From an uncultured Myxococcales bacterium (GTDB taxonomy: Bacteria; Myxococcota_A; Polyangia; Nannocystales; Nannocystaceae), in NCBI GenBank assembly GCA_902826865.1, contig CADEGN010000008.1, positions 1 to 64,000 of the forward strand: a stretch of DNA of 64,000 nucleotides, written 5' to 3'. The translations under genes and the position numbers were made by a program. Below are positions 50,009-62,753 of the stretch, piece by piece. Position 1 is the first letter of the stretch. Each line of letters opens with the position of its first letter. The notes beneath the pieces are model-generated. The model was not told the DNA's origin. It ran no database searches and saw only the letters and a list, made by a program, of their open reading frames with translations.

Positions 50009-51030
50009 CACTTGCCCTGGATCCGCGCGATGAAGTCGTACGGATAACCGAGGTCGGGGGCGGAAATTTCGTCGAGCTTGCGCACGAAGTCGTCCGGGAG
50101 CTGGACATTCGCGGTCTCGAGGTTGTCGTCGAGCTGCGCGAGGGAGCGGGCGCCGAAGATCACCGATGTGACGCCTGGCTTGCGCATGAGCCAGCCGAGC
50201 GCAACCTGGGCCGGCGTTGCCCCGAGCTCAGCCGCAATCGTCACGAGGGCGTCGACGATGCGCCAGTTCTGCTCGGTATCGAGTCGACCCCACCGATCCT
50301 TCCACTGCTCGAGACGGCTGCCGGCTGGAGGGCGCTGACCACCGCGGTACTTGCCGGACAACAGTCCGCCCGCCAGTGGCGACCACGGCAAGATCCCGAG
50401 GCCGTGGTTGCGGCAGAGCGGCACGTGCTCGCGCTCGATCTCTCGCGACACCAGTGAGTACTGCGCCTGCAGCGAAACAAACGCAGACAGCCGTTGCTCG
50501 CGGCTGGTCCAGAGGCTATCGCATAGGCGATACGCAGCGTAGTTGCTCGCTCCGATGTAGAGCACCTTGCCCTGGCGCACGAGGTCGTCGAGCGCGCGGA
50601 GAGTTTCCTCTTCGGGCGTGTCGAAGTCCTGCATGTGGATCTGGTAAAGATCGATGCGATCGGTCTGTAGCCGCCGCAAGCTATCCTCGCACGCACGAAT
50701 GATGTGGTAGCGCGAAGCACCGGTCGCGTTGGGCCCCTTCCCCATGCGAAAGCGGAACTTGGTCGCAAGCACGAGCTCATCGCGCCGTTTGCTGCGGGCG
50801 AGCCAGCCGCCTATCACCCGTTCGGTCAGCCCCTCCTGGCCGTACACGTCTGCGGTGTCGAAGAAGTTCACGCCGCCATCGAGCGCGCGGCTCATGATTG
50901 TCCCGGCCGTCTGCTCATCGCACCCTACGGCGTGCATGAACGAGTTCTCGTCGGCCTCGCCGAACGTCATCGTCCCGAGGCAAAGCGTCGAGACTTGCAG
51001 GCCGCTTCGGCCCAGGGTGCGGTATTGCAT
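50005..51030 (-). CDS. Aldo/keto reductase
   Basis: A 341-residue (beta/alpha)8 oxidoreductase. The tetrad is visible: Asp and Tyr in NFFDTADVYG, Lys in LVLATKFRF and His in LYQIHMQD. It also has the NADPH-loop signature ILPWSPLAGGLLSGKYRG near 230. Length and YAKR-type features match AKR family 11/14-like proteins. The substrate is unknown. ATG 51030 (MQYRTLGRSG) starts the typical N-terminal strand. It is the first gene of a two-gene unit with hrpB (GTGA overlap), diverging from feoA. Confidence 0.92.
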
Positions 51031-51234
51031 CTCGTACGACTCCGTCGAGGGACGCCCGAACCTACAGCTCGCGCCCGAGCCTCGCAACGAGACGATTGCC
51101 CGGATGGCTTACATGCGACAGCCCGGAAGACGGGTGGTGCCATGGGGCGAGGCCCGGCGAATGGTCGGTCCGTGACCCTGCTCCCATCGCGACGGGTGCT
51201 TGACCGGCTTCCCGCGCCCACCGATGCTCTCCTC

Positions 51235-51462
51235 ATGCCTGAGCGGACGCTGGCTGCGCTTTCGGTAGGCGAGGCCGCTACCGTGCGCGAAGTTGGAGGA
51301 GATGGCACATTGGCCGTCCGCCTGCTCGAGATGGGGTTTGTTCCCGGCACGTCGGTGAAACTCGTGAAACTAGCGCCGCTCGGCGATCCGATGCAGTTCG
51401 AGGTTCGCGGCTACCATCTCTCGCTTCGCCGCGCGGAAGCGGCGCGGATACGGGTGCTGTGA
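51235..51462 (+). CDS. feoA: Ferrous iron transport protein FeoA
   Basis: A 75-residue SH3-like FeoA: LSVGEAATVREVGG at the N-terminus, LLEMGFVPGTSVKLVKLAPLGDP in the core and RGYHLSLRRAEAARI at the end. It supports FeoB in Fe(II) uptake at the cytoplasmic side. ATG 51235 was chosen as it gives the family length. The stop overlaps the feoB GTG by 4 bases. Confidence 0.93.
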   Translation: MPERTLAALSVGEAATVREVGGDGTLAVRLLEMGFVPGTSVKLVKLAPLGDPMQFEVRGYHLSLRRAEAARIRVL

Positions 51463-53543
51463 GCCGGGAGGTCAAGCCAATTCGCGTCGCCCTCGCCGGC
51501 AATCCCAACGTCGGCAAGACGAGCCTGTTCAACGAGCTCACCGGTTCGCGGCATCGGGTTGGCAATTACGCTGGTGTGACCGTCGAACGCCGCGAAGGGG
51601 ATCTTGCGGACGGGTTAGCTGCGTCCGCCAAGGTGACGCTGCTGGATCTTCCCGGCACATATAGCCTGTCGCCGACTTCTGAGGACGAGGCGCTTGCGTA
51701 TCGCGTGCTTACCGGCGAGGGGGAGCCCGCGCCCGATGCCGTGTTGCTGGTGGTCGACGCCACGAACCTAGCCCGCAACCTTTATCTTGCGCTGCAACTG
51801 CTCGAGCTCGGTCGTCCGCTCGTTGTGGCGCTCAACATGGTTGACGATGCTCGGGCCCTTGGGCTTCCGAGCGATGCCGCGTCGCTCGCCGACGCACTCG
51901 GTGTGTCGGTGGTCGCTACAGTTGCGCGCACTGGCGAAGGAGTTTCGCAATTGGCGGCCGCCCTGGCTCAAGCCGAGTCCGCCGAGCACGAACCGCGGCT
52001 GGCCGCGCCCGGGCCTGATCACGTTGCGCTGTGCGAAACGCTTGCATGCCTCGGTGGCGACAGTGCCCGGGCACGCTGGTTGCTAACCGCGGGGGTGGCC
52101 GGGACTGCCGCACAGTTCGGTGCCACGGCTACGGAACTTGAGCGCCTGGCTGCGGTGGATGACGCGAAGGCGCGGCGAGCGTGTCAGGAGCTCGTCGCCA
52201 CCCGCTATGCCGAGATCGAGCAGATGCTCGTCCGGCTCGGCTCCCGGCGCAGCGACGCCGGCGCGCCCGCGATGACGCGGTCGCAGCAGATCGATCGGGT
52301 CCTCACCCATCGAGCGCTTGGGCTTGTCATCTTCGCCGCGGTGATGAGCGTCGTGTTTGTTTCGATCTTCACGTGGGCACAGCCACTCATGGATGCGATC
52401 GAGGCCGGCTTCGGCGCTCTGTCGAGCTCAATCGGCGATGCGCTCGGGCCAGGTATGTTAACCGACCTCGTCACCCAGGGTGTGATCGCCGGCGCCGGCA
52501 ACGTGGTGGTCTTCGTTCCACAGATTGCGCTGCTATTTCTGTTTCTCGGTCTCCTCGAGGACAGCGGCTACATGGCTCGCGCCGCCTTCTTGATGGATCG
52601 GATCATGGCCCGACTCGGGCTGCACGGCCGCGCTTTCATTCCGCTGCTCTCCGGTTACGCGTGCGCGATTCCAGCGATTCTTGGCACGCGGACGATTTCG
52701 AGCTTCAAGGATCGTCTCGTGACGATCCTTATGATCCCTTATATGAGCTGCTCGGCGCGGCTGCCGATCTACAGCCTCGTGATCGGTGCGCTTTTTGTCA
52801 CGGCTGACGAAGGAGCCTCCGGGGATCTGGAGCGCGGCGGGATTCTCCTAGGGATGTACGCGCTCTCCACCGCGTCGGCATTGTTCGTGGGTTGGTTGTA
52901 CAAGCGAACGATCCTTACGAGCCCAACACCACCCTTGGTCCTCGAGTTGCCCCCGTATCGCTTGCCGCGGGTGCGCAATACCCTGCTCATCGTTTACGAT
53001 CGCACGGCGGATTTCGTTCGCAATGCGGGCACGGTGATCGTCATGCTGACGATAGTGTTGTGGGGGCTGCTCAGCTTTCCCCGCGACCAAACAGGTGCCG
53101 GTGGAGAGGGGCCGACCCGGATCGCCGAGAGCTGGGGTGGCCGGGCCGCCCGGACACTCGAGCCGGCACTCGAACCGATCGGCCAGGATTGGCGGATGGG
53201 CGTCGGAATCATCGGGAGCTTCGCCGCGCGCGAGGTGTTGGTAGGGACGCTTGGGCTTGTCTATGGCATGGAAGCCGACGACGACGATCCCGTCGAGCTG
53301 CGGCGAGCGATCCGCGAGGACCGCGATAGCGCAACCGGCAAACCCCGGTACACACGCCTTTCGGGCCTAGCGCTCATGGTCTTCTTCGTCTATGCGTGCC
53401 AGTGCATGTCGACGCTGTCGGTTGTCCGCCGTGAGACGAGGTCGTGGCGGTGGCCGGCATTCATGTTCGTGTCGATGACGGCGTTGGCTTACCTCGCCGC
53501 GCTGGTCGTGTATCAAGGTGGTCGGTTGCTCGGATACGCCTGA
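51459..53543 (+). CDS. feoB: Ferrous iron transporter FeoB
   Basis: A 694-residue Fe(II) permease with an N-terminal GTPase: GNPNVGKTS near 12 (G1), DLPGTYSLSP near 65 (G3) and ALNMVD near 127 (G4). A helical insertion follows, then about nine membrane helices with two Gate-type segments (VFVPQIALLFLFLGLLEDSG and FIPLLSGYACAIPAILGTRT). GTG 51459 overlaps feoA. No FeoC is present. Length is slightly shorter than E. coli FeoB (773). A hairpin at 53638-53661 may end the operon. Confidence 0.96.
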   Translation: MSREVKPIRVALAGNPNVGKTSLFNELTGSRHRVGNYAGVTVERREGDLADGLAASAKVTLLDLPGTYSLSPTSEDEALAYRVLTGEGEPAPDAVLLVVDATNLARNLYLALQLLELGRPLVVALNMVDDARALGLPSDAASLADALGVSVVATVARTGEGVSQLAAALAQAESAEHEPRLAAPGPDHVALCETLACLGGDSARARWLLTAGVAGTAAQFGATATELERLAAVDDAKARRACQELVATRYAEIEQMLVRLGSRRSDAGAPAMTRSQQIDRVLTHRALGLVIFAAVMSVVFVSIFTWAQPLMDAIEAGFGALSSSIGDALGPGMLTDLVTQGVIAGAGNVVVFVPQIALLFLFLGLLEDSGYMARAAFLMDRIMARLGLHGRAFIPLLSGYACAIPAILGTRTISSFKDRLVTILMIPYMSCSARLPIYSLVIGALFVTADEGASGDLERGGILLGMYALSTASALFVGWLYKRTILTSPTPPLVLELPPYRLPRVRNTLLIVYDRTADFVRNAGTVIVMLTIVLWGLLSFPRDQTGAGGEGPTRIAESWGGRAARTLEPALEPIGQDWRMGVGIIGSFAAREVLVGTLGLVYGMEADDDDPVELRRAIREDRDSATGKPRYTRLSGLALMVFFVYACQCMSTLSVVRRETRSWRWPAFMFVSMTALAYLAALVVYQGGRLLGYA

Positions 53544-53928
53544 ATGCTGCGCCGCTGAGCGTGCGGCGCGCCCCAGCGCACCGTGACGGGAACTGGCCGC
53601 GTGTTGTTCCGGCGTTCCACGGTTGTGATGAAACCCCCCACACGCGTACGGTCGCGTGTGGATCGTGGGCCTTGCTCGATTCCGCCAAGGTGGCGCGAAG
53701 CTGCTCGCTCTCGACCCGTCGAGCGCGCAAGGGCGCGCCAGACCGGCGATCGCGGCGTTGTCTCGGTCGCCGCGCTTGATCCTGGAAGCGGGCCTCGGCA
53801 TGGTGTTTGGCGCGAGGTGGTCGCCGAACGTAAATTCGCCTGGGCGTCCGATGAAGGGGTGTTCGGCGGGCGAGGCAAGCTGAGGCCGACGGCCTCGCGC
53901 CCGGCGAGGTCCGCAAAGAACGGTGGGG
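53544..53928. other. Intergenic stretch between feoB and the S1-GGDEF gene
   Basis: These 385 bases contain a perfect 9-bp hairpin (53638-53661) and no convincing gene. The rest should hold the promoter of the diguanylate cyclase gene. No Fur-box-like sequence was identified, though a reliable search by eye is not possible. Confidence 0.5.
53638..53661 (+). terminator. Hairpin downstream of feoB
   Basis: CCACACGCG-TACGGT-CGCGTGTGG forms a perfect 9-bp stem with a 6-base loop, 95 bases past the feoB stop. No T-run follows on the plus strand, so it could instead be a regulatory or RNA-stability element. Confidence 0.35.
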
Positions 53929-55440
53929 ATGGGCGCGGACACCGACCAACGAGCTGAGGCGATGCGCAAGCAGCTCGTGGTCGGTGACGAGCTCCACGGA
54001 ACTGTGGAGTCGATCGATGCCGCCGGGGTCGTCGTTGATCTCAACGGTCTAAAGGGGCTCGTTGACCTCGCGGAACTCAGCGACCGCCCCTTCGTTTCCC
54101 CATTCGAGGTGGTGTCGGTTGGTGAGCGCGTGCGTGTAAAAGTGCTGGCGATCGACCCCGGTGAAGGGAGTGACAAGCGAGCGCGCCTCTCGATGAGAGC
54201 GCTCGCGCCCGCCCTGCTCGCGCGAACCACCCCGTTTGCTCAACTCCTTGGCTTCGCCCGGATTCGCTACATCGTGCTGCTTCTGCCGGGCGTGATCCTC
54301 GTGGCCGCGCTGCTCGTGGGCTATTCCGCCAGCGATAGCAACTGGAAGTCCGCGCAAGCGGCCCTCGAGCGTGCCCACACGGTGTCCAATGCGGCGCTCG
54401 AGCTCAAGTTCCAGAGCGCTGACCTCAACGGGTGGCAGACGGCCTACGCCCTGGATTTCGCGAGACGCTCTCCGGCCGCCGTGCCGCTCCTCCGGCGGCA
54501 GGAGTTCCTCGCATCGACGCGGAGGTTCGGCAAACAGATGGACGAGGTTCGTCGTCTGCTCAGGACCCGCGAGGAAGAGGCGACGATGGCGGAGCTCGTG
54601 GAGACGTTCAGGGCCTTCATGGCCGCCGACGTGGAGATCTTCGCGGCTTTTCAGAGCGGAGACCCCGAACGAGTTCGACTCGCGCATGACGACGTGTTGG
54701 GCGCGGAGATCGACCGGTTCGAGAAAATTGCCCGATTGACCGACACCCTGGTGGCATTGATCCAGGAGCGAACCCAAGAGAGCCTTGACGTTTCCGATCA
54801 GACTTCGGCGCGCATTCGGATGCAACTTTGGGGAATAGGCGCACTCGGGCTCATCTTTTCTGCGGTCCTGACCCTGTTGTTGCTGAAGTCGATGCGCCGG
54901 ACCGATGCTCTCGTCGTCGAGCTACGCAAGGAAGCTCATACGGATGCGTTGACGGGCCTACCCAACCGCCGCACCTGGGACCAGCGAATCGGCGCAGAGC
55001 TGGCCCGTGCCGAGCGGCTTTCTTACCCGCTTTGCCTGGTGGTTATCGACTTGGACCGCTTCAAGCAGTTCAACGATGAGCACGGTCATGTCGAGGGTGA
55101 CAGGCTGCTTCGGTCCGCTGCACGAGCGTGGAGCGAGATGATCCGCGAGGGTGACCTGCTTGCGCGCCTCGGCGGCGAGGAGTTTGCGCTTCTGCTGCCA
55201 GGGTGCGGCCTAGCCGATGCGCGGATCCTCGTCGACCGGCTGCGGTCAGTCACGCCCTCAGGTGAAACCTTCTCGGCCGGGCTTGCTTTGTGGGCCCGCC
55301 AAGAGACCGCGGTTGAGCTGTTCCTGCGGGCCGACGCCGCCTTGTATCAGGCGAAGGTCCTCGGGCGGGACCGAACAGAGATCGCGCCAGAACCCAGCTC
55401 GTCGGGGGCGCCGGTCACACCGATCCAGAACTTGGGTTGA
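53929..55440 (+). CDS. Diguanylate cyclase with N-terminal S1 RNA-binding domain
   Basis: A 503-residue membrane protein with an unusual order: a cytoplasmic S1-like domain at about 17-90 (VGDELHGTVESIDAAGVVVDL, LVDLAELS, VVSVGERVRVKVLAIDP), a first membrane helix near 114-134, a periplasmic helical sensor to about 300, a second helix near 300-322 and a GGDEF domain to the end. The GGEEF active site lies at 415-419 and an RxxD inhibitory site (REGD) five residues before it. It should make cyclic di-GMP and be product-inhibited. S1 modules usually bind RNA. ATG 53929 has GGTGGGG upstream; ATG 53962 is also possible. Confidence 0.9.
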   Translation: MGADTDQRAEAMRKQLVVGDELHGTVESIDAAGVVVDLNGLKGLVDLAELSDRPFVSPFEVVSVGERVRVKVLAIDPGEGSDKRARLSMRALAPALLARTTPFAQLLGFARIRYIVLLLPGVILVAALLVGYSASDSNWKSAQAALERAHTVSNAALELKFQSADLNGWQTAYALDFARRSPAAVPLLRRQEFLASTRRFGKQMDEVRRLLRTREEEATMAELVETFRAFMAADVEIFAAFQSGDPERVRLAHDDVLGAEIDRFEKIARLTDTLVALIQERTQESLDVSDQTSARIRMQLWGIGALGLIFSAVLTLLLLKSMRRTDALVVELRKEAHTDALTGLPNRRTWDQRIGAELARAERLSYPLCLVVIDLDRFKQFNDEHGHVEGDRLLRSAARAWSEMIREGDLLARLGGEEFALLLPGCGLADARILVDRLRSVTPSGETFSAGLALWARQETAVELFLRADAALYQAKVLGRDRTEIAPEPSSSGAPVTPIQNLG

Positions 55441-55468: not shown

Positions 55469-56506
55469 TCAGAAGCGAGCCCGCACGTACACGCCGGCCT
55501 CGCGTGGACCGACGAGCAGGGAAACCTGATGCTGGGGACGCACGACTTCGCGACGCCGGTTGAGGATCAGCATCGTCACACCGGTGGTCACGGCGACACC
55601 TCCGACCACAAACATCCCGATCGAAGCACCGCTCAACGAACGCGCCTGCCCGCGAAGATCTCGTACCGTCTCCGGGACGTCAGCGGCGTTGCACCCCTGC
55701 GGGCAAAGATCGCTGATTTCTCGGTCGAATCGGCGCGCGCGCGCGACTGCGGAAATGCGCAGTGCGCCGCCGATAACGCCCACTGCGACGCCTGCGGCGA
55801 GCGGCAGGAGCGGAACCCATACCTTCCACCTACGTTCGAGTCGGGTTGACGCCTTGGGCGGCCTGAGCTCCACGAGCTCGCGCGTGCTTTCGCCAGCTCG
55901 CAGATCGAGCGAGCGCGTGAGGGGAACATACCCGGGTTTCTCCGCGACGATCTGATGTTCCCCAGGAATGAGATGCTGCTCCGTCGTCGCGGGGCATCGC
56001 AGCAGGTGTTTGCCGTCGAGTGTTACGTCGACGCCGGCTTGAACACATCGAATCTGCAGGCGGGCGAGACGGCCTTCCAGGAGTTTCGCGTAGGTTTGCG
56101 CCTGCGTGCGAAAATCGCCACCGAGGGTTTCGGCGCTGCGCTCGAGGGCCTGACGCAGATGCGCAAGCGCCTGCACTGGCTGATCGAGGTTGATCAGGCA
56201 AACGGCGAGGTTGAAGTGAATCGCCGGGTGTTCCCACAACGCTAGGGCGTCACGGTAGTAGCGTGCCGCATCCGCGAATCGGTCGCGCTCGAACTCGCCG
56301 TTGCCCATCAGAAACAAGCCGCGCGCCTTTTGCCGGTCATCTTCCGGCGCTTCAGGTTCCGCGTCGGGCTCGGTTGGTGGAAGCGCGGGCTGACCATTTG
56401 CTGGGTCGCTCGCTGACGCGTGCTCGGTGGCATCTTCCCCGAAGATCTCGGGAGATGTAAGTGCAGCCAGCACTCCTCCGACCCAGCTGGCAACAATCGT
56501 GGACAT
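55469..56506 (-). CDS. TPR-PEGA membrane protein
   Basis: A 345-residue protein with an N-terminal hydrophobic segment (ASWVGGVLAALTS), an acidic Pro-rich linker and TPR repeats at about 65-140 (YYRDALALWEHPAIHFNLAV and a following repeat). A PEGA-like domain (QAGVDVTLDGKHLLRC) is near 155-225. Two C-terminal membrane helices follow (VWVPLLPLAAGVAVGVIGGAL and GMFVVGGVAVTTGVTMLI). Such proteins are frequent in myxobacteria, often with Ser/Thr kinases. ATG 56506 was chosen. It converges with the S1-GGDEF gene, 28 bases apart. Confidence 0.85.
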   Translation of the reverse strand: MSTIVASWVGGVLAALTSPEIFGEDATEHASASDPANGQPALPPTEPDAEPEAPEDDRQKARGLFLMGNGEFERDRFADAARYYRDALALWEHPAIHFNLAVCLINLDQPVQALAHLRQALERSAETLGGDFRTQAQTYAKLLEGRLARLQIRCVQAGVDVTLDGKHLLRCPATTEQHLIPGEHQIVAEKPGYVPLTRSLDLRAGESTRELVELRPPKASTRLERRWKVWVPLLPLAAGVAVGVIGGALRISAVARARRFDREISDLCPQGCNAADVPETVRDLRGQARSLSGASIGMFVVGGVAVTTGVTMLILNRRREVVRPQHQVSLLVGPREAGVYVRARF

Positions 56507-56727
56507 CTGAGCCCAATATAGGGTTTCGAGGATCCAGATTGAAGTGTCACACTGAGGATCTCGGGCTGTTGATCCCCAACCCCTCTGACGCCACCTGCGG
56601 ACGCACGCAAGCACAAGGGTTCTTCCGCACAGGAGAGCAGGTCATGTTGACTCAAGTTCGACCATCCCTGGCCGAATTAGACGACTATCCCCCCGGGGGT
56701 TCGCCCTCCCCCGAGCTTAGGTGTTGT

Positions 56728-58116
56728 ATGCACGAGGCTCTGCCGCAGAGATCATGGGAGCCACCTGTCGCGCGTGCCGGCGTGCTGGCGGTTGCTTTCG
56801 GCCTCGCCGCATTGGTTGGCTGCCAAGCGTCGGAAGCAGGGTCCGACAACAAGGTGATCGCGATGACCACCGCGGGCATGAGCGCGATGGAGGGGACCTC
56901 GACGGGCGAGTCGAGCGGAACCGTCGCGGACACCGTGGGTGCTCAGCCCTGCGACGTGAACGAGGACTGTGACGACGGCAACCTCTGCAACGGCGCGGAG
57001 GTCTGCGCCCCGGCCGGGGTATGCGAAGCCGGCACGCCGCCCGAAGGGCGCCCCCAATGCGGGGATGGCATGCTGTGTGTCGACGGAGAGTGCGTTGCAG
57101 CCGTGTGTGGGAACGGTCAGCTCGAAACGGGCGAACACTGTGACGACGGGAACACCGCCACCTTCGACGGTTGCGACCAGTCCTGTCGCTACGAGTTGTT
57201 CTACCGCATGTACGAGGTCACCGCGCTGCCGAGTCCGGCCGCGAGCTTCTGCTCTCGCCCGACCAGTGCCGTGGGCGACAGCATGTCGGAGTTCGTGCTC
57301 GGGGCGCATAACGCGGGCACGCAGGACGATATCGACATCGGTGTACGCAACTCGCTCTTCCAGCTGCTCGATCTCGATGACATGAGCGGGCAGAGCGACG
57401 AGACGATCGAGTTTCGGATGGTTGGCGCGGTTACCGATCCCGCGCGCGGCACATGGCCAGCAGACGGGTCGAATCCGATCGATTGGTGGTTTCTCGCCAA
57501 TCCCTGGGATCTCGCTCCCGACGGCGGCATTGGCATCCGCGTGGCAGATACGGCGCTTCAAGGCGGGACATTTATCGGCGGGCCGTCAACGATTCTAAGT
57601 GAAGCGCACGACCTGCTGGACGTGTCGGTGCGGGCGCACTTCAGCGACACTTTAGATCCCAACGTTCCAGCCGGCCCACCCGAGTCCTTGGCGCCTGGCC
57701 TGCAGGTTCCGCAGGAGATCATCGGCGAGGGCGACGACGAGGGGATCTGCGGCACAATCACCGTTTCCTACTTTGCGAGTCAGCCCCTGAGCTCTGGCCT
57801 CGCGGACTGTCTCGACTGTCCTGGCCGCTCGCGGACCTACAACCCCTGCGAAGGCGAGATGCTAACCGAGACGTGCAATTCTGCCCTCGATGTCGTTGTC
57901 GGCGGCTGCGTGCTTGGGCCGAGCTGCGATGCGGGGATCGAGATCATCTTTCCCAGCCAGCCGGACGTGGACCATGGTGGCATCGCGGTGCTCACCAACG
58001 ACCCCGCGAATCTCAACAAGATCCCGACGGCGCAGACAGACGGAAACCTCAACGGGTACTCGTACTACTATCACTTTCGAGCTCGTCGGGTTCATATTAC
58101 CGGCATCAACGAGTGA
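56728..58116 (+). CDS. Cysteine-rich lipoprotein with DUF4215-type repeat (paralogue A)
   Basis: A 462-residue lipoprotein (lipobox LVGC) with a Ser/Thr linker. A cysteine-rich region follows with CDDGNLCNGAEVC, CVDGECVAAVC and the DUF4215-type CGNGQLETGEHCDDGN...FDGCDQSC. A large C-terminal domain of about 290 residues has repeated ASFCxRPTSxxGD, DWWFLxNP and LNKIPTxQTDxNxNGYS motifs. That domain is shared with the protein at 61380-62753. Function unknown; probably a surface protein. ATG 56728 has AGGTG upstream; ATG 56644 has a stronger AGGAG but would put the signal 45 residues in. Confidence 0.75.
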   Translation: MHEALPQRSWEPPVARAGVLAVAFGLAALVGCQASEAGSDNKVIAMTTAGMSAMEGTSTGESSGTVADTVGAQPCDVNEDCDDGNLCNGAEVCAPAGVCEAGTPPEGRPQCGDGMLCVDGECVAAVCGNGQLETGEHCDDGNTATFDGCDQSCRYELFYRMYEVTALPSPAASFCSRPTSAVGDSMSEFVLGAHNAGTQDDIDIGVRNSLFQLLDLDDMSGQSDETIEFRMVGAVTDPARGTWPADGSNPIDWWFLANPWDLAPDGGIGIRVADTALQGGTFIGGPSTILSEAHDLLDVSVRAHFSDTLDPNVPAGPPESLAPGLQVPQEIIGEGDDEGICGTITVSYFASQPLSSGLADCLDCPGRSRTYNPCEGEMLTETCNSALDVVVGGCVLGPSCDAGIEIIFPSQPDVDHGGIAVLTNDPANLNKIPTAQTDGNLNGYSYYYHFRARRVHITGINE

Positions 58117-58483: not shown

Positions 58484-61393
58484 GTGGTCGTGCTCGGTGA
58501 TATCATTGACGTCCAAGTGGCCGAGCTTGCCGAGACGAGTGCTGAGGATCCAACAGTCGCGCCCCTGGATCCGAACTGGCGTGCGTTTATGGCCGAGCAG
58601 GCGACGCTCGAGCCTGGGCGTCGCATCGAAAGCTACGAAATCATCCGCGAACTCGGCCGCGGTGGCATGAGCGTCGTTTACCTCGCTCGCGACGTACAGC
58701 TGGGCCGGCGCGTTGCGATCAAGGTGCTCTCGATGCGCCTCCTTTCCGAGGCCACGCGATTTCTCAACGAGGCCCAGGCTACTGCGCGGTGCCAACACGA
58801 GAACATCGTTGTCATCCACTCAGTAGGGACCCTCGAAACGGGTGTGCCTTACATGGTGCTCGAGCACCTGGCAGGGTCGACACTCAAGGACTTCCTCAAG
58901 GAACGGCGCCTGCCAGCGGCCAAAGCAGTCGAGCTGATGGTTCCCGTGGTACGGGCGCTCGTCGTTGCCCACGGCGAGCGAATCGTTCACCGCGATCTCA
59001 AGCCCAGTAATATCGTCCTCACGCGCTCGGGGACGATCAAAGTTCTCGACTTCGGCATCGCGAAAACGCTAGATCCACTGGCCTCGTTCGCTGAGCCAGA
59101 ACGCCAGCTCCCGCACAGCATTCGTCGGAGCGGCGCAGGTAGCGATGCCTTGTTGACCACGGACGCGGAGCTCTCCGCGATCGGCCAGCAAATCGGCACG
59201 GTGCAGTATATGGCGCCCGAGCAGTGGGGCGCAGACGAGATCGACTACCGCGCCGATATCTGGGCGGTCGGTCTCATCTTGTACCAAATGGTTGTCGGCG
59301 CTCCGCTCTTGGGGGGGCGCTCAGCTGAGGAGATCCACGAAGAAGTCTGCGACCTTGAGCGGCCGTTCCCGAGTGTCAGCCAGGCCGCGCCGACCCTGCC
59401 CCGCGAGTTCGTCGAGATCGTCGATCGCTGCCTGCAGAAGAAGAAGTCCCAGCGCTTCGATTCGGCCAAGGAACTCCTCCAAGCGCTGGAAGCGCTCCTG
59501 CCCCATTACCGTGGGGCCGCCTCCGACCAGTGCCCCTACCCCGGGTTGGCCGCGTTCGATTCATCGGAAGCGAATCGGTATTTCGGCCGCCCGACCGAGA
59601 TTCGCCAGGCCCTCTTGTCGCTCGACCGAAACCCATTGCTGGCGATCACCGGTCCGTCTGGGATCGGCAAGTCGTCGTTCGTCCGTGCGGGTCTCATTCC
59701 GGCCCTTCGTGGCTCAGGCGAGAACTGGGACTCGTTCGATATTCGACCTGGTCGACGTCCATTGTCGAGGTTGGCCAGCATCTGCCAGCAAATCTCCCGC
59801 ACGAACACGGTCACGGCTAGTCCGACGACGCGCAAGCGTGACGTGGAGAATCGCGACGAGATCCTCACGCGGCTGCGCGAACAACCCGGGTATTTCGCGA
59901 ATTCTCTGCGTCGGTATGCGAACGAGGTCGGCGTTCGGATTGTCCTGTTCGTCGACCAGTTTGAGGAGGTCTTCACGCTTGTCCCGGACCGAGATGAGCG
60001 CATGGCGTTTGCTTCCTCGCTGCTTGCGATGGCAGACGACGCGGGCTCGCCCCTGCGCGTCGTGCTCTCGTTGCGCTCGGATTTTCTCGATCGGGTATCA
60101 GAGCACGAGGAACTGTCGCAAGAGATGACGCGGGGCTTGATGCTCCTGCCTCAGATGTCCCGCGATGCATTGCGCTCCGCGCTGACGCAGCCGGCGGAGA
60201 TGGCCGGCTACCGCTTCGAGGATGCGGCGATGGTCGAGGCGATGCTCGACGTACTGGAGACGAGTCTGCACTCCCTGCCGATCCTTCAATTTGTGGCGGG
60301 GCGCCTGTGGGAGTTGAGGAACAAGGAAAGCAAGGTTCTCCCGCGGGCCGCCTACGATGAGCTGGGCGGGATTGAAGGCGCCCTCGCAGCCCATGCGGAT
60401 GCCACCTACGATAGTTTCTCCCAGCGCGAGCAGGGGCTCGTCCGCAAGGTCTTCCATCGGCTCGTCACGCCCGAGCGTACGCGTGCTCTCGTCGATGTCT
60501 CTGAGCTCGAAGCGCTGGGCTTGTCCGGCGAAATCAACCGGGTTTTCGATCGATTGTCGAACTCGAGGTTGATCACGGTGGACGCGCGCGGTGGCGACAC
60601 CGCGGTCGTCGAGCTCGTTCACGAGTCACTCATCACTGGGTGGCCGCGGCTCAAACGGTGGCTCGACGAAGATGCAGAGCACGCGGTCCTGGTAGCAGAA
60701 CTCCGCGATGTCGCTCGACAGTGGGACAGCCGGGGCCGCCCGCCGGGGCTGCTGTGGCGCGCCGATGCGCTTGCGGATGCGCAGAAGTTTGCAGAGCGCT
60801 ACCGCGGGAGATTAGCGGCGCGAGAGCAAGACTACCTGGATGCCGCGTTTGCTTTGCAGGCGCGGTCTGTACGAATCCGACGGGTGGCGATCGCCGGCGC
60901 CTTTGTGCTGGTGTCGAGCTTCGCAGCTGCGACCGGCATAGGATTCGTGAAGATCCGGAGCGCGGAGCAGGTCGCTCGCGTGGCCGAGAAAGACGCGCGC
61001 GAGGCGGAGCTTGTCGCCCGGAAGTCGGAACAGGCGGCAACCGATCAGGCCGGACTTGCCAACCAGGAAGCCGCTCGCGCCCAGGAGGCCGAGCGCAAGG
61101 TGAGCGAGCAGCTCGAGAAGCTCAAGGCCGAGGAGAACGCACGCATGGCGGCGGAGCAACAGGCGACGAAAGCGGCTGAAGAGTTGCGCGTGACCAATAC
61201 CGAGCTTGCGAGTAGCAACCGGCAGCTAGGCGATGCCCTGGCTCGGGCAAAGAAGTCCGCCGAGGAGGCCGCGAAGTCCACCCTGGCCGAACGAGCGCTC
61301 AGCCACCGGCTCGAGGTCTTGCTCGAGGAAGAGCGGCAACGCGTGCGAGAGCTAGAGAAGAAACGCGGAAAGATCATCGATGACCTGCACTGA
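58484..61393 (+). CDS. Ser/Thr kinase fused to a STAND-type NTPase with coiled-coil tail
   Basis: A 969-residue protein. The kinase domain (about 52-330) has LGRGGMSVV, Lys80 (VAIKVL), IVHRDLKPSN (Asp171), VLDFGIA (Asp189) and GTVQYMAPEQW. A nucleotide-binding domain follows with Walker A GPSGIGKSSFVRAGLIPAL near 390 and Walker B VLFVDQFEEVF near 486, as in nSTAND1-type proteins. A winged-helix-like region, a transmembrane helix near 804-823 and a charged coiled coil at 830-969 complete it. GTG 58484 is open and its acidic N-terminus is plausible; ATG 58589 gives a shorter start before the kinase. It lies between two paralogous lipoprotein genes and overlaps the second by 14 bases. Confidence 0.9.
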   Translation: MVVLGDIIDVQVAELAETSAEDPTVAPLDPNWRAFMAEQATLEPGRRIESYEIIRELGRGGMSVVYLARDVQLGRRVAIKVLSMRLLSEATRFLNEAQATARCQHENIVVIHSVGTLETGVPYMVLEHLAGSTLKDFLKERRLPAAKAVELMVPVVRALVVAHGERIVHRDLKPSNIVLTRSGTIKVLDFGIAKTLDPLASFAEPERQLPHSIRRSGAGSDALLTTDAELSAIGQQIGTVQYMAPEQWGADEIDYRADIWAVGLILYQMVVGAPLLGGRSAEEIHEEVCDLERPFPSVSQAAPTLPREFVEIVDRCLQKKKSQRFDSAKELLQALEALLPHYRGAASDQCPYPGLAAFDSSEANRYFGRPTEIRQALLSLDRNPLLAITGPSGIGKSSFVRAGLIPALRGSGENWDSFDIRPGRRPLSRLASICQQISRTNTVTASPTTRKRDVENRDEILTRLREQPGYFANSLRRYANEVGVRIVLFVDQFEEVFTLVPDRDERMAFASSLLAMADDAGSPLRVVLSLRSDFLDRVSEHEELSQEMTRGLMLLPQMSRDALRSALTQPAEMAGYRFEDAAMVEAMLDVLETSLHSLPILQFVAGRLWELRNKESKVLPRAAYDELGGIEGALAAHADATYDSFSQREQGLVRKVFHRLVTPERTRALVDVSELEALGLSGEINRVFDRLSNSRLITVDARGGDTAVVELVHESLITGWPRLKRWLDEDAEHAVLVAELRDVARQWDSRGRPPGLLWRADALADAQKFAERYRGRLAAREQDYLDAAFALQARSVRIRRVAIAGAFVLVSSFAAATGIGFVKIRSAEQVARVAEKDAREAELVARKSEQAATDQAGLANQEAARAQEAERKVSEQLEKLKAEENARMAAEQQATKAAEELRVTNTELASSNRQLGDALARAKKSAEEAAKSTLAERALSHRLEVLLEEERQRVRELEKKRGKIIDDLH

Positions 61394-62753
61394 CATTCGC
61401 GCGCGCGACGCGTTTGTATCGCCGGTGGGGCCGGTCGGGCTGGCACTGGGAGTCGCGGTCTCAGTCGCATGTTCCGCGAGCGGCGAAGGGGGCGCAACGT
61501 CCCACGTCGCCGCGTCCGATGGCACTGAGCAGACGACCGCAGCCGAATCACTCGACTCGAGCAGCGGCACCGGGGGCGGGCCTCCACCGTGTCAAACGGA
61601 CTTGGACTGCGACGACCTAAATCTCTGCAACGGGACAGAGGTTTGCAATGCCGCTAGCGTGTGCGATTCGGGTCAGCCCCCTGTCGACTCGACTCCGTGC
61701 GGCGAAGGCATGGCGTGTTTCGATGGCCAGTGTGTCGCCACCGTGTGCGGAAACGGGGAGATCGAGCCGGGAGAGGACTGCGACGACGCGAACTTCGAGG
61801 TCCTCGACGGGTGTGATGATCGTTGTCGCTACGAGATGATCTTCCGTCTGTTCGAACTCACCATCTTGCCGAGCCCGGCCGCGAGTTTTTGCGCGCGTCC
61901 TACGAGTACGCTTGGCGACGCGCTTGCACCTTTTACACTTGAGGCCCGGAACGCGGGCACAAAGGCCGACATCGACGCGGGTGTCTTCAACTCGCTCATC
62001 CAGTTCGTCAACGTGACGGATTTTTCGGGGGCAACGCAGCAAACAATCGAGCTGCGCATGGCTGATGCAGTCCTTGACCCCGCGCGCGGCGCTTGGCCGC
62101 AGAACAGTTCAAATCCGGTCGACTGGTGGTTTCTTATGAACCCGGAGTCGATGGCACCTGATGGTGGCTTTGGGATCCGGGTACCTGAGGTCGTGCTAAG
62201 CGGGGGCATGCTTATCGGCGGACCGGGGAGCACCCTGGCTGCCGCCCCCGATCTGACGGATCTCGCCGTGCACGCACGGATCAGCGGCGTGCCAGAGGCC
62301 GATACGCCAGCCGGCCCCCCCGACGAGCTGGCCGACGGCCTCCTGATCCCACAGGAGTTGATCGGCGACGGACCCGACGAAGGCGTCTGCGGAACGCTGG
62401 TGGTCCCCAGCTTGGCGGGGAACCCGATCGGGCCGCCGCTTGGGGACTGCCTCGAGTGCCCGGGCATGTCTCACGCCTACATCGAATGCCCTGGGACCGA
62501 GGTGCCCGACACCTGCAACTCATTGCTCGACACGCTGGTCGGTGGATGCGTGCTGGGAACCAGCTGCGAATCGGGGCTTCCGGTCATCTTTCCCACGCAG
62601 CCAGACGTCAACCACGGTGGAGTAGAAGTCCTAACTAACGACCCGGAGAATCTGAACAAAATCCCCAGCGTGCAGACCGACAAGAACCCTAATGGTTATT
62701 CCGTCTACTTTCAGTTTCGCGCGCGGCGTGCTCACGTTACGGGTGTGAACTAA
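61380..62753 (+). CDS. Cysteine-rich lipoprotein with DUF4215-type repeat (paralogue B)
   Basis: A 457-residue lipoprotein (lipobox SVAC near residue 31) closely related to the gene at 56728. It has the same order of linker, CxxDxDCDDLNLCNG-type cysteine repeats, CGNGEIEPGEDCDDAN...LDGCDDRC and the same C-terminal domain with PSPAASFCARPTSTLGDAL, DWWFLMNP and LNKIPSVQTDKNPNGYS. The start overlaps the kinase-STAND 3' end by 14 bases, so it is cotranscribed with that gene. Its stop overlaps the convergent beta-propeller gene by 3 bases. Confidence 0.8.
   Translation: MTCTDIRARDAFVSPVGPVGLALGVAVSVACSASGEGGATSHVAASDGTEQTTAAESLDSSSGTGGGPPPCQTDLDCDDLNLCNGTEVCNAASVCDSGQPPVDSTPCGEGMACFDGQCVATVCGNGEIEPGEDCDDANFEVLDGCDDRCRYEMIFRLFELTILPSPAASFCARPTSTLGDALAPFTLEARNAGTKADIDAGVFNSLIQFVNVTDFSGATQQTIELRMADAVLDPARGAWPQNSSNPVDWWFLMNPESMAPDGGFGIRVPEVVLSGGMLIGGPGSTLAAAPDLTDLAVHARISGVPEADTPAGPPDELADGLLIPQELIGDGPDEGVCGTLVVPSLAGNPIGPPLGDCLECPGMSHAYIECPGTEVPDTCNSLLDTLVGGCVLGTSCESGLPVIFPTQPDVNHGGVEVLTNDPENLNKIPSVQTDKNPNGYSVYFQFRARRAHVTGVN

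Follow-up and report, generated by a model that had tools for sequence, protein, structure and literature searches.

An S1 domain on a membrane diguanylate cyclase of one Nannocystaceae species, probably captured from a four-repeat S1-like protein

What does an S1 domain do on a membrane diguanylate cyclase, and where did it come from? The question is raised by a gene in the 64,000-nucleotide stretch of DNA analysed here (the window), an open frame of 503 codons at 53929-55440 on the + strand that encodes an S1 domain, two transmembrane (TM) helices around a sensor, and a GGDEF domain. Diguanylate cyclases carry many kinds of sensor domain, and we know of none with an S1 domain. An earlier note on this DNA had stated that no established class is known to join S1 to GGDEF, and likewise no description of such a class was found in the open-access literature searched.

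The gene and its domains

Codon-position GC is flat 5' of 53929 and coding-like (0.77/0.37/0.77) from 53929 on; because the coding signal sets in there, we place the translation start at 53929 or very near it. An in-frame GTG at 53923, two codons further 5', is a possible alternative start. Homology to S1 repeats can be traced from residue 3 on, ahead of the Met at 53962, and together with the codon periodicity from 53929 this indicates that the S1 part is genuinely translated. The earlier note had cautioned that a true start at 53962 or later might remove part of the fold, but a start at 53962 would cost only residues 1 to 11 and leave the S1 core (residues 18 to 80) whole. Codon periodicity is uniform from the S1 part through the sensor to the GGDEF part, and similar in the neighboring feoB gene. 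The sequence around the start showed neither a sigma-70-like promoter nor a terminator, an observation of little weight in a high-GC genome.

The N-terminus opens with a helix (residues 3 to 17, 53935-53979; this and all following coordinates within the gene are on the + strand) whose homologue in S1-like proteins is the linker that precedes repeat 3. It is followed by an S1 (OB-fold) domain at residues 18 to 80 (53980-54168), whose last strand runs to about residue 92. When the whole protein was compared with PF00575, residues 18 to 80 matched with an E value of 3.1e-10; when residues 1 to 106 were compared, the E value was 1.8e-11 and the score was 44.7 bits, against a curated cut-off of 22. 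In a phmmer search against solved structures, ribosomal protein S1 chains topped the list. An AlphaFold2 model of residues 1 to 100 (mean pLDDT, 72.8) matched solved S1 domains by Foldseek, namely mycobacterial S1, Vibrio S1, GSP13 and Tex, with TMq values mostly of 0.70 to 0.77 and E values of about 1e-6, although the alignment behind the model consisted of S1 repeats from five IMG/VR contigs, so that this fold support is not fully independent. A prediction for the whole protein made without relatives was too poor for use (pLDDT, 42.5). The earlier note had placed an S1-like domain at the N-terminus and had proposed a profile search and a structure prediction as the check; both gave an S1 match.

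Hydropathy peaks predict TM helix 1 at residues ~112 to 133 (54262-54327) and TM helix 2 at residues ~298 to 323 (54820-54897), in keeping with the earlier description of two membrane helices around a periplasmic sensor. The intervening segment (residues ~134 to 297, 54328-54819) is predicted to be periplasmic and all helical, the helices being those of the low-confidence whole-protein model, and it belongs to no known family: the ~160 residues between the helices had no match among Pfam families or solved sequences. Among 241 class and 379 phylum genomes (overlapping sets), no credible relative of the sensor was found beyond one weak likeness to the periplasmic helical domain of a histidine kinase from another family (L043, G194:C302; 28%, E 1.3e-4). 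We rejected this kinase as a sensor relative, the likeness being that of a weakly similar helical bundle, and discarded a match in G208 as spurious, its frame lying antisense to a long open reading frame (ORF). Two scans of genome contigs, one with residues 1 to 328 and one with the sensor motif, in which only the exact peptide words tried were detectable, gave no confirmed relative.

The GGDEF domain occupies residues 336 to 482 (54934-55374; PF00990, E 1.6e-36). Its motif set is complete, comprising the GGEEF active-site motif (residues 415 to 419, 55171-55185), an RxxD inhibitory site (I-site) in the form REGD (residues 406 to 409, 55144-55155) five residues ahead of it, DLDRFKQFND for DxDxFKxxND, and GHVEGD for GHxxGD; it thus classes as a GGDEF domain with an I-site, and the active and inhibitory sites reported in the earlier note are both present. 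The best NCBIfam match was SiaD (NF038266; 138.6 bits, residues 328 to 482), yet the score falls far under the cut-off of 290, and we do not count the protein as a member of this equivalog. With other membrane GGDEF cyclases that have a periplasmic sensor, it shares the TM-sensor-TM-GGDEF plan, the GGEEF motif and the I-site. It differs from them in the extra cytoplasmic S1 domain, in the sensor without a known family, and in a GGDEF domain that is shorter than the domains compared by ~12 residues before the TFSAG strand, in the segment between RLRSV and TFSAGLA (55246-55296, +).

Origin of the S1 domain and its RNA-contact residues

The S1 proteins of the host genome include a six-repeat ribosomal S1 (G000:C453), a four-repeat S1-like protein of 443 amino acids (G000:C104) and a few single-S1 ORFs. 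An S1 search of ten genomes (this one and nine relatives) gave frames whose sizes fit ribosomal S1, S1-like proteins, PNPase, Tex, RNase E/G and NusA, the assignments being by size. Within its own genome, the cyclase S1 domain is most similar to repeat 3 of the four-repeat protein, with 63.6 bits, as against 13.3 bits or less for the other repeats of that protein, 25 bits for the best ribosomal S1 repeat and 18 bits for the lone S1 domain of ORF C243. Repeat 3 was also the best match in every multi-repeat S1 protein fetched from the relatives (51 to 67 bits). The similarity includes the preceding helix, residues 3 to 101 of the cyclase being 49% identical to repeat 3 of G000:C104. That protein is otherwise unlike the cyclase: it has four S1 repeats and no membrane or GGDEF part, and it retains Y, F and H at the sites of RNA contact. 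Because the score to repeat 3 so exceeds that to any ribosomal S1 repeat, the cyclase S1 domain probably stems from the four-repeat S1-like family.

In a tree built on 97 columns, the cyclase S1 domain grouped with most repeat-3 sequences, away from the ribosomal S1 repeats (branch support, 97/99). The same group also holds the S1 domains of E. coli PNPase and C243. The alignment is short and the branch to the cyclase is long (1.09), so that the tree gives it no definite sister. In a larger tree with all repeats, the cyclase S1 domain took no firm place; it lay in the vicinity of repeat 3 and of the ribosomal repeats and not inside the repeat-3 group. The most economical account is capture of repeat 3 together with its preceding helix, and we infer the direction, from the S1-like family to the cyclase.

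The earlier note had suggested that RNA or translation might control cyclic di-GMP (c-di-GMP) synthesis at the membrane, a reading under which the S1 domain would bind RNA or the ribosome and alter GGDEF activity. The RNA site of the S1 domain in PNPase consists of F19, F22, H34, D64 and R68 (PMC6832287). Against a PNPase reference whose full-length sequence is identical to a solved PNPase chain, the cyclase aligns at these positions with Ala32 (54022-54024), Val35 (54031-54033), Asp46 (54064-54066), Asp76 and Arg84. Three of the five residues are therefore replaced, and the domain does not have the full set of residues of an RNA-binding S1. Across 21 repeat-3 sequences (20 repeats from relatives plus ribosomal repeat 3 of the host genome), the His is present in all 21 and the Phe in 17, and the first position is Tyr or Phe in 17 and His in the rest. 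Ribosomal repeats 3 to 6 of the host keep both aromatics and the His. In one group of relatives (L026, L029, L035 and L038), the S1-like protein keeps the later His of repeat 3 but carries His and Ile/Val where the two aromatics would stand.

The replacement of both aromatics and the His makes the usual RNA sensing unlikely, and judged by these residues canonical RNA binding by the cyclase S1 domain has most likely been lost. Control by RNA or by the state of translation would be in line with the clear S1 sequence and fold, with the retention of two RNA-site residues, D76 and R84, and with the presence of E. coli DgcO/PdeO in a degradosome that has a c-di-GMP-responsive PNPase (PMC8846402). 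That precedent, however, acts by protein contact and has no S1 domain on the cyclase, and A32, V35 and D46 stand where F/Y, F and H are expected. Moreover, RNA binding by a single S1 repeat is usually weak. The suggestion thus found no support at the residues concerned, and we regard it as improbable. A variant in which the captured domain would use an altered, non-canonical binding face to link c-di-GMP synthesis with RNA, ribosomes or the RNA-decay machinery appears to us just as doubtful.

Distribution and gene neighborhood

The earlier note had named a confident S1 match in several genomes as support for a new architecture. When a joint S1 and GGDEF profile was run on the family's 29 genomes and almost every candidate was scored, only the gene described here spanned both domains; the other matches listed, down to an E value of 1e-45, were essentially to the GGDEF side only. 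No second S1-GGDEF protein was seen in 284 genomes of the phylum, with five candidates scored in each. Four profile matches (L045 to L048), three of which reached the S1 columns, were set aside as fusion relatives, inspection showing them to be without an S1 domain. Searches with the full-length cyclase returned matches to the GGDEF part only, and no plasmid record covered 80% of it. The architecture is thus found in one genome, and within the family and phylum genomes covered the fusion is confined to a single species.

Directly upstream of the cyclase lie feoA and feoB (ferrous iron transport; 50704-53543, +). The order akr-feoA-feoB is kept in three sister species, with identities of 77 to 81% for akr, 67 to 69% for feoB, and less for feoA. 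No counterpart of the cyclase follows feoB in two of them (G003 and G002), where a kinase gene is next; in the third (G001) the contig ends at feoB. The cyclase gene is solitary, lying 385 bp beyond feoB and facing a convergent gene downstream, an arrangement that does not support a dedicated operon. The convergent neighbor (55469-56614, -) encodes TPR and PEGA domains, and because it finds only weak matches in the sister species, the stretch from feoB to the kinase gene is variable. The kinase gene of the window (58484-61393, +) encodes a Ser/Thr protein kinase fused to an nSTAND1 NTPase, and the frames flanking it (56461-58116 and 61380-62753, both +) have weak DUF4215 matches that lie under the curated cut-off.

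A single occurrence in a fragmented draft assembly (628 contigs, 91% complete) could in principle reflect the artificial joining of an S1 fragment to a cyclase. This is very improbable, since the S1 copy differs from every other S1 in the genome, the nearest being about half identical, the frame is continuous with even codon periodicity over the junction, and feoB lies upstream as it does in the sister species. The main rival to a functional module is instead a recently added S1 domain of little or no function that is tolerated on an otherwise ordinary membrane diguanylate cyclase. Its restriction to one species, its absence after feoB in the sister species, its long branch and the loss of RNA-site residues are all consistent with this. 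Yet the S1 core is intact, with a Pfam score twice the cut-off, an open frame and preserved periodicity, and the fold gives the impression of conservation, not decay. We consider a functionless accretion rather unlikely, although less so than RNA-dependent control.

A possible role in protein contact or placement

The reading that we prefer, to which we give a probability of about one half, is that this diguanylate cyclase is peculiar to its species and that its captured S1/OB module, now degenerate, probably serves in protein contact or in placing the enzyme. The protein would be an inner-membrane diguanylate cyclase whose periplasmic helical domain takes a signal and passes it through TM helix 2 to the GGDEF domain, so that active dimers make c-di-GMP under feedback from the I-site. 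Its cytoplasmic N-terminus would have acquired a single S1/OB domain, probably copied from repeat 3 of the four-repeat protein of the host. This domain may hold the enzyme beside other proteins, for example ribosomal or RNA-decay proteins, and so create a local source of c-di-GMP. A role in contact or placement is the likelier one, given that the two aromatics and the His, three of the five residues of the RNA site, are replaced. Other diguanylate cyclases are known to signal locally with c-di-GMP by way of protein contact (PMC5635695), among them a cyclase that sits in the E. coli degradosome (PMC5635695, PMC8846402).

Several observations count against this preferred reading. The equivalents of D64 and R68 remain, and some repeat-3 relatives also lack the aromatics while keeping the His. 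No conserved neighborhood points to a partner protein, and since the S1 domain has no orthologue, selection on it cannot be shown.

The E. coli degradosome, with DgcO/PdeO, RNase E and PNPase, likewise ties c-di-GMP synthesis to S1-bearing RNA proteins (PMC8846402, PMC5635695). There the tie is made by contacts of separate proteins and a heme sensor, whereas here the S1 domain is covalently joined to a membrane cyclase and is missing key RNA residues. The wider meaning is limited because the fusion is seen in one draft genome only. It offers a clear case in which one repeat out of a multi-repeat RNA protein was apparently captured as a signaling module and lost its RNA-contact residues. If it is true that the S1 module places the cyclase by ribosomal or RNA-decay proteins, the cyclase would achieve in one protein the link for which E. 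coli uses DgcO/PdeO and the degradosome.
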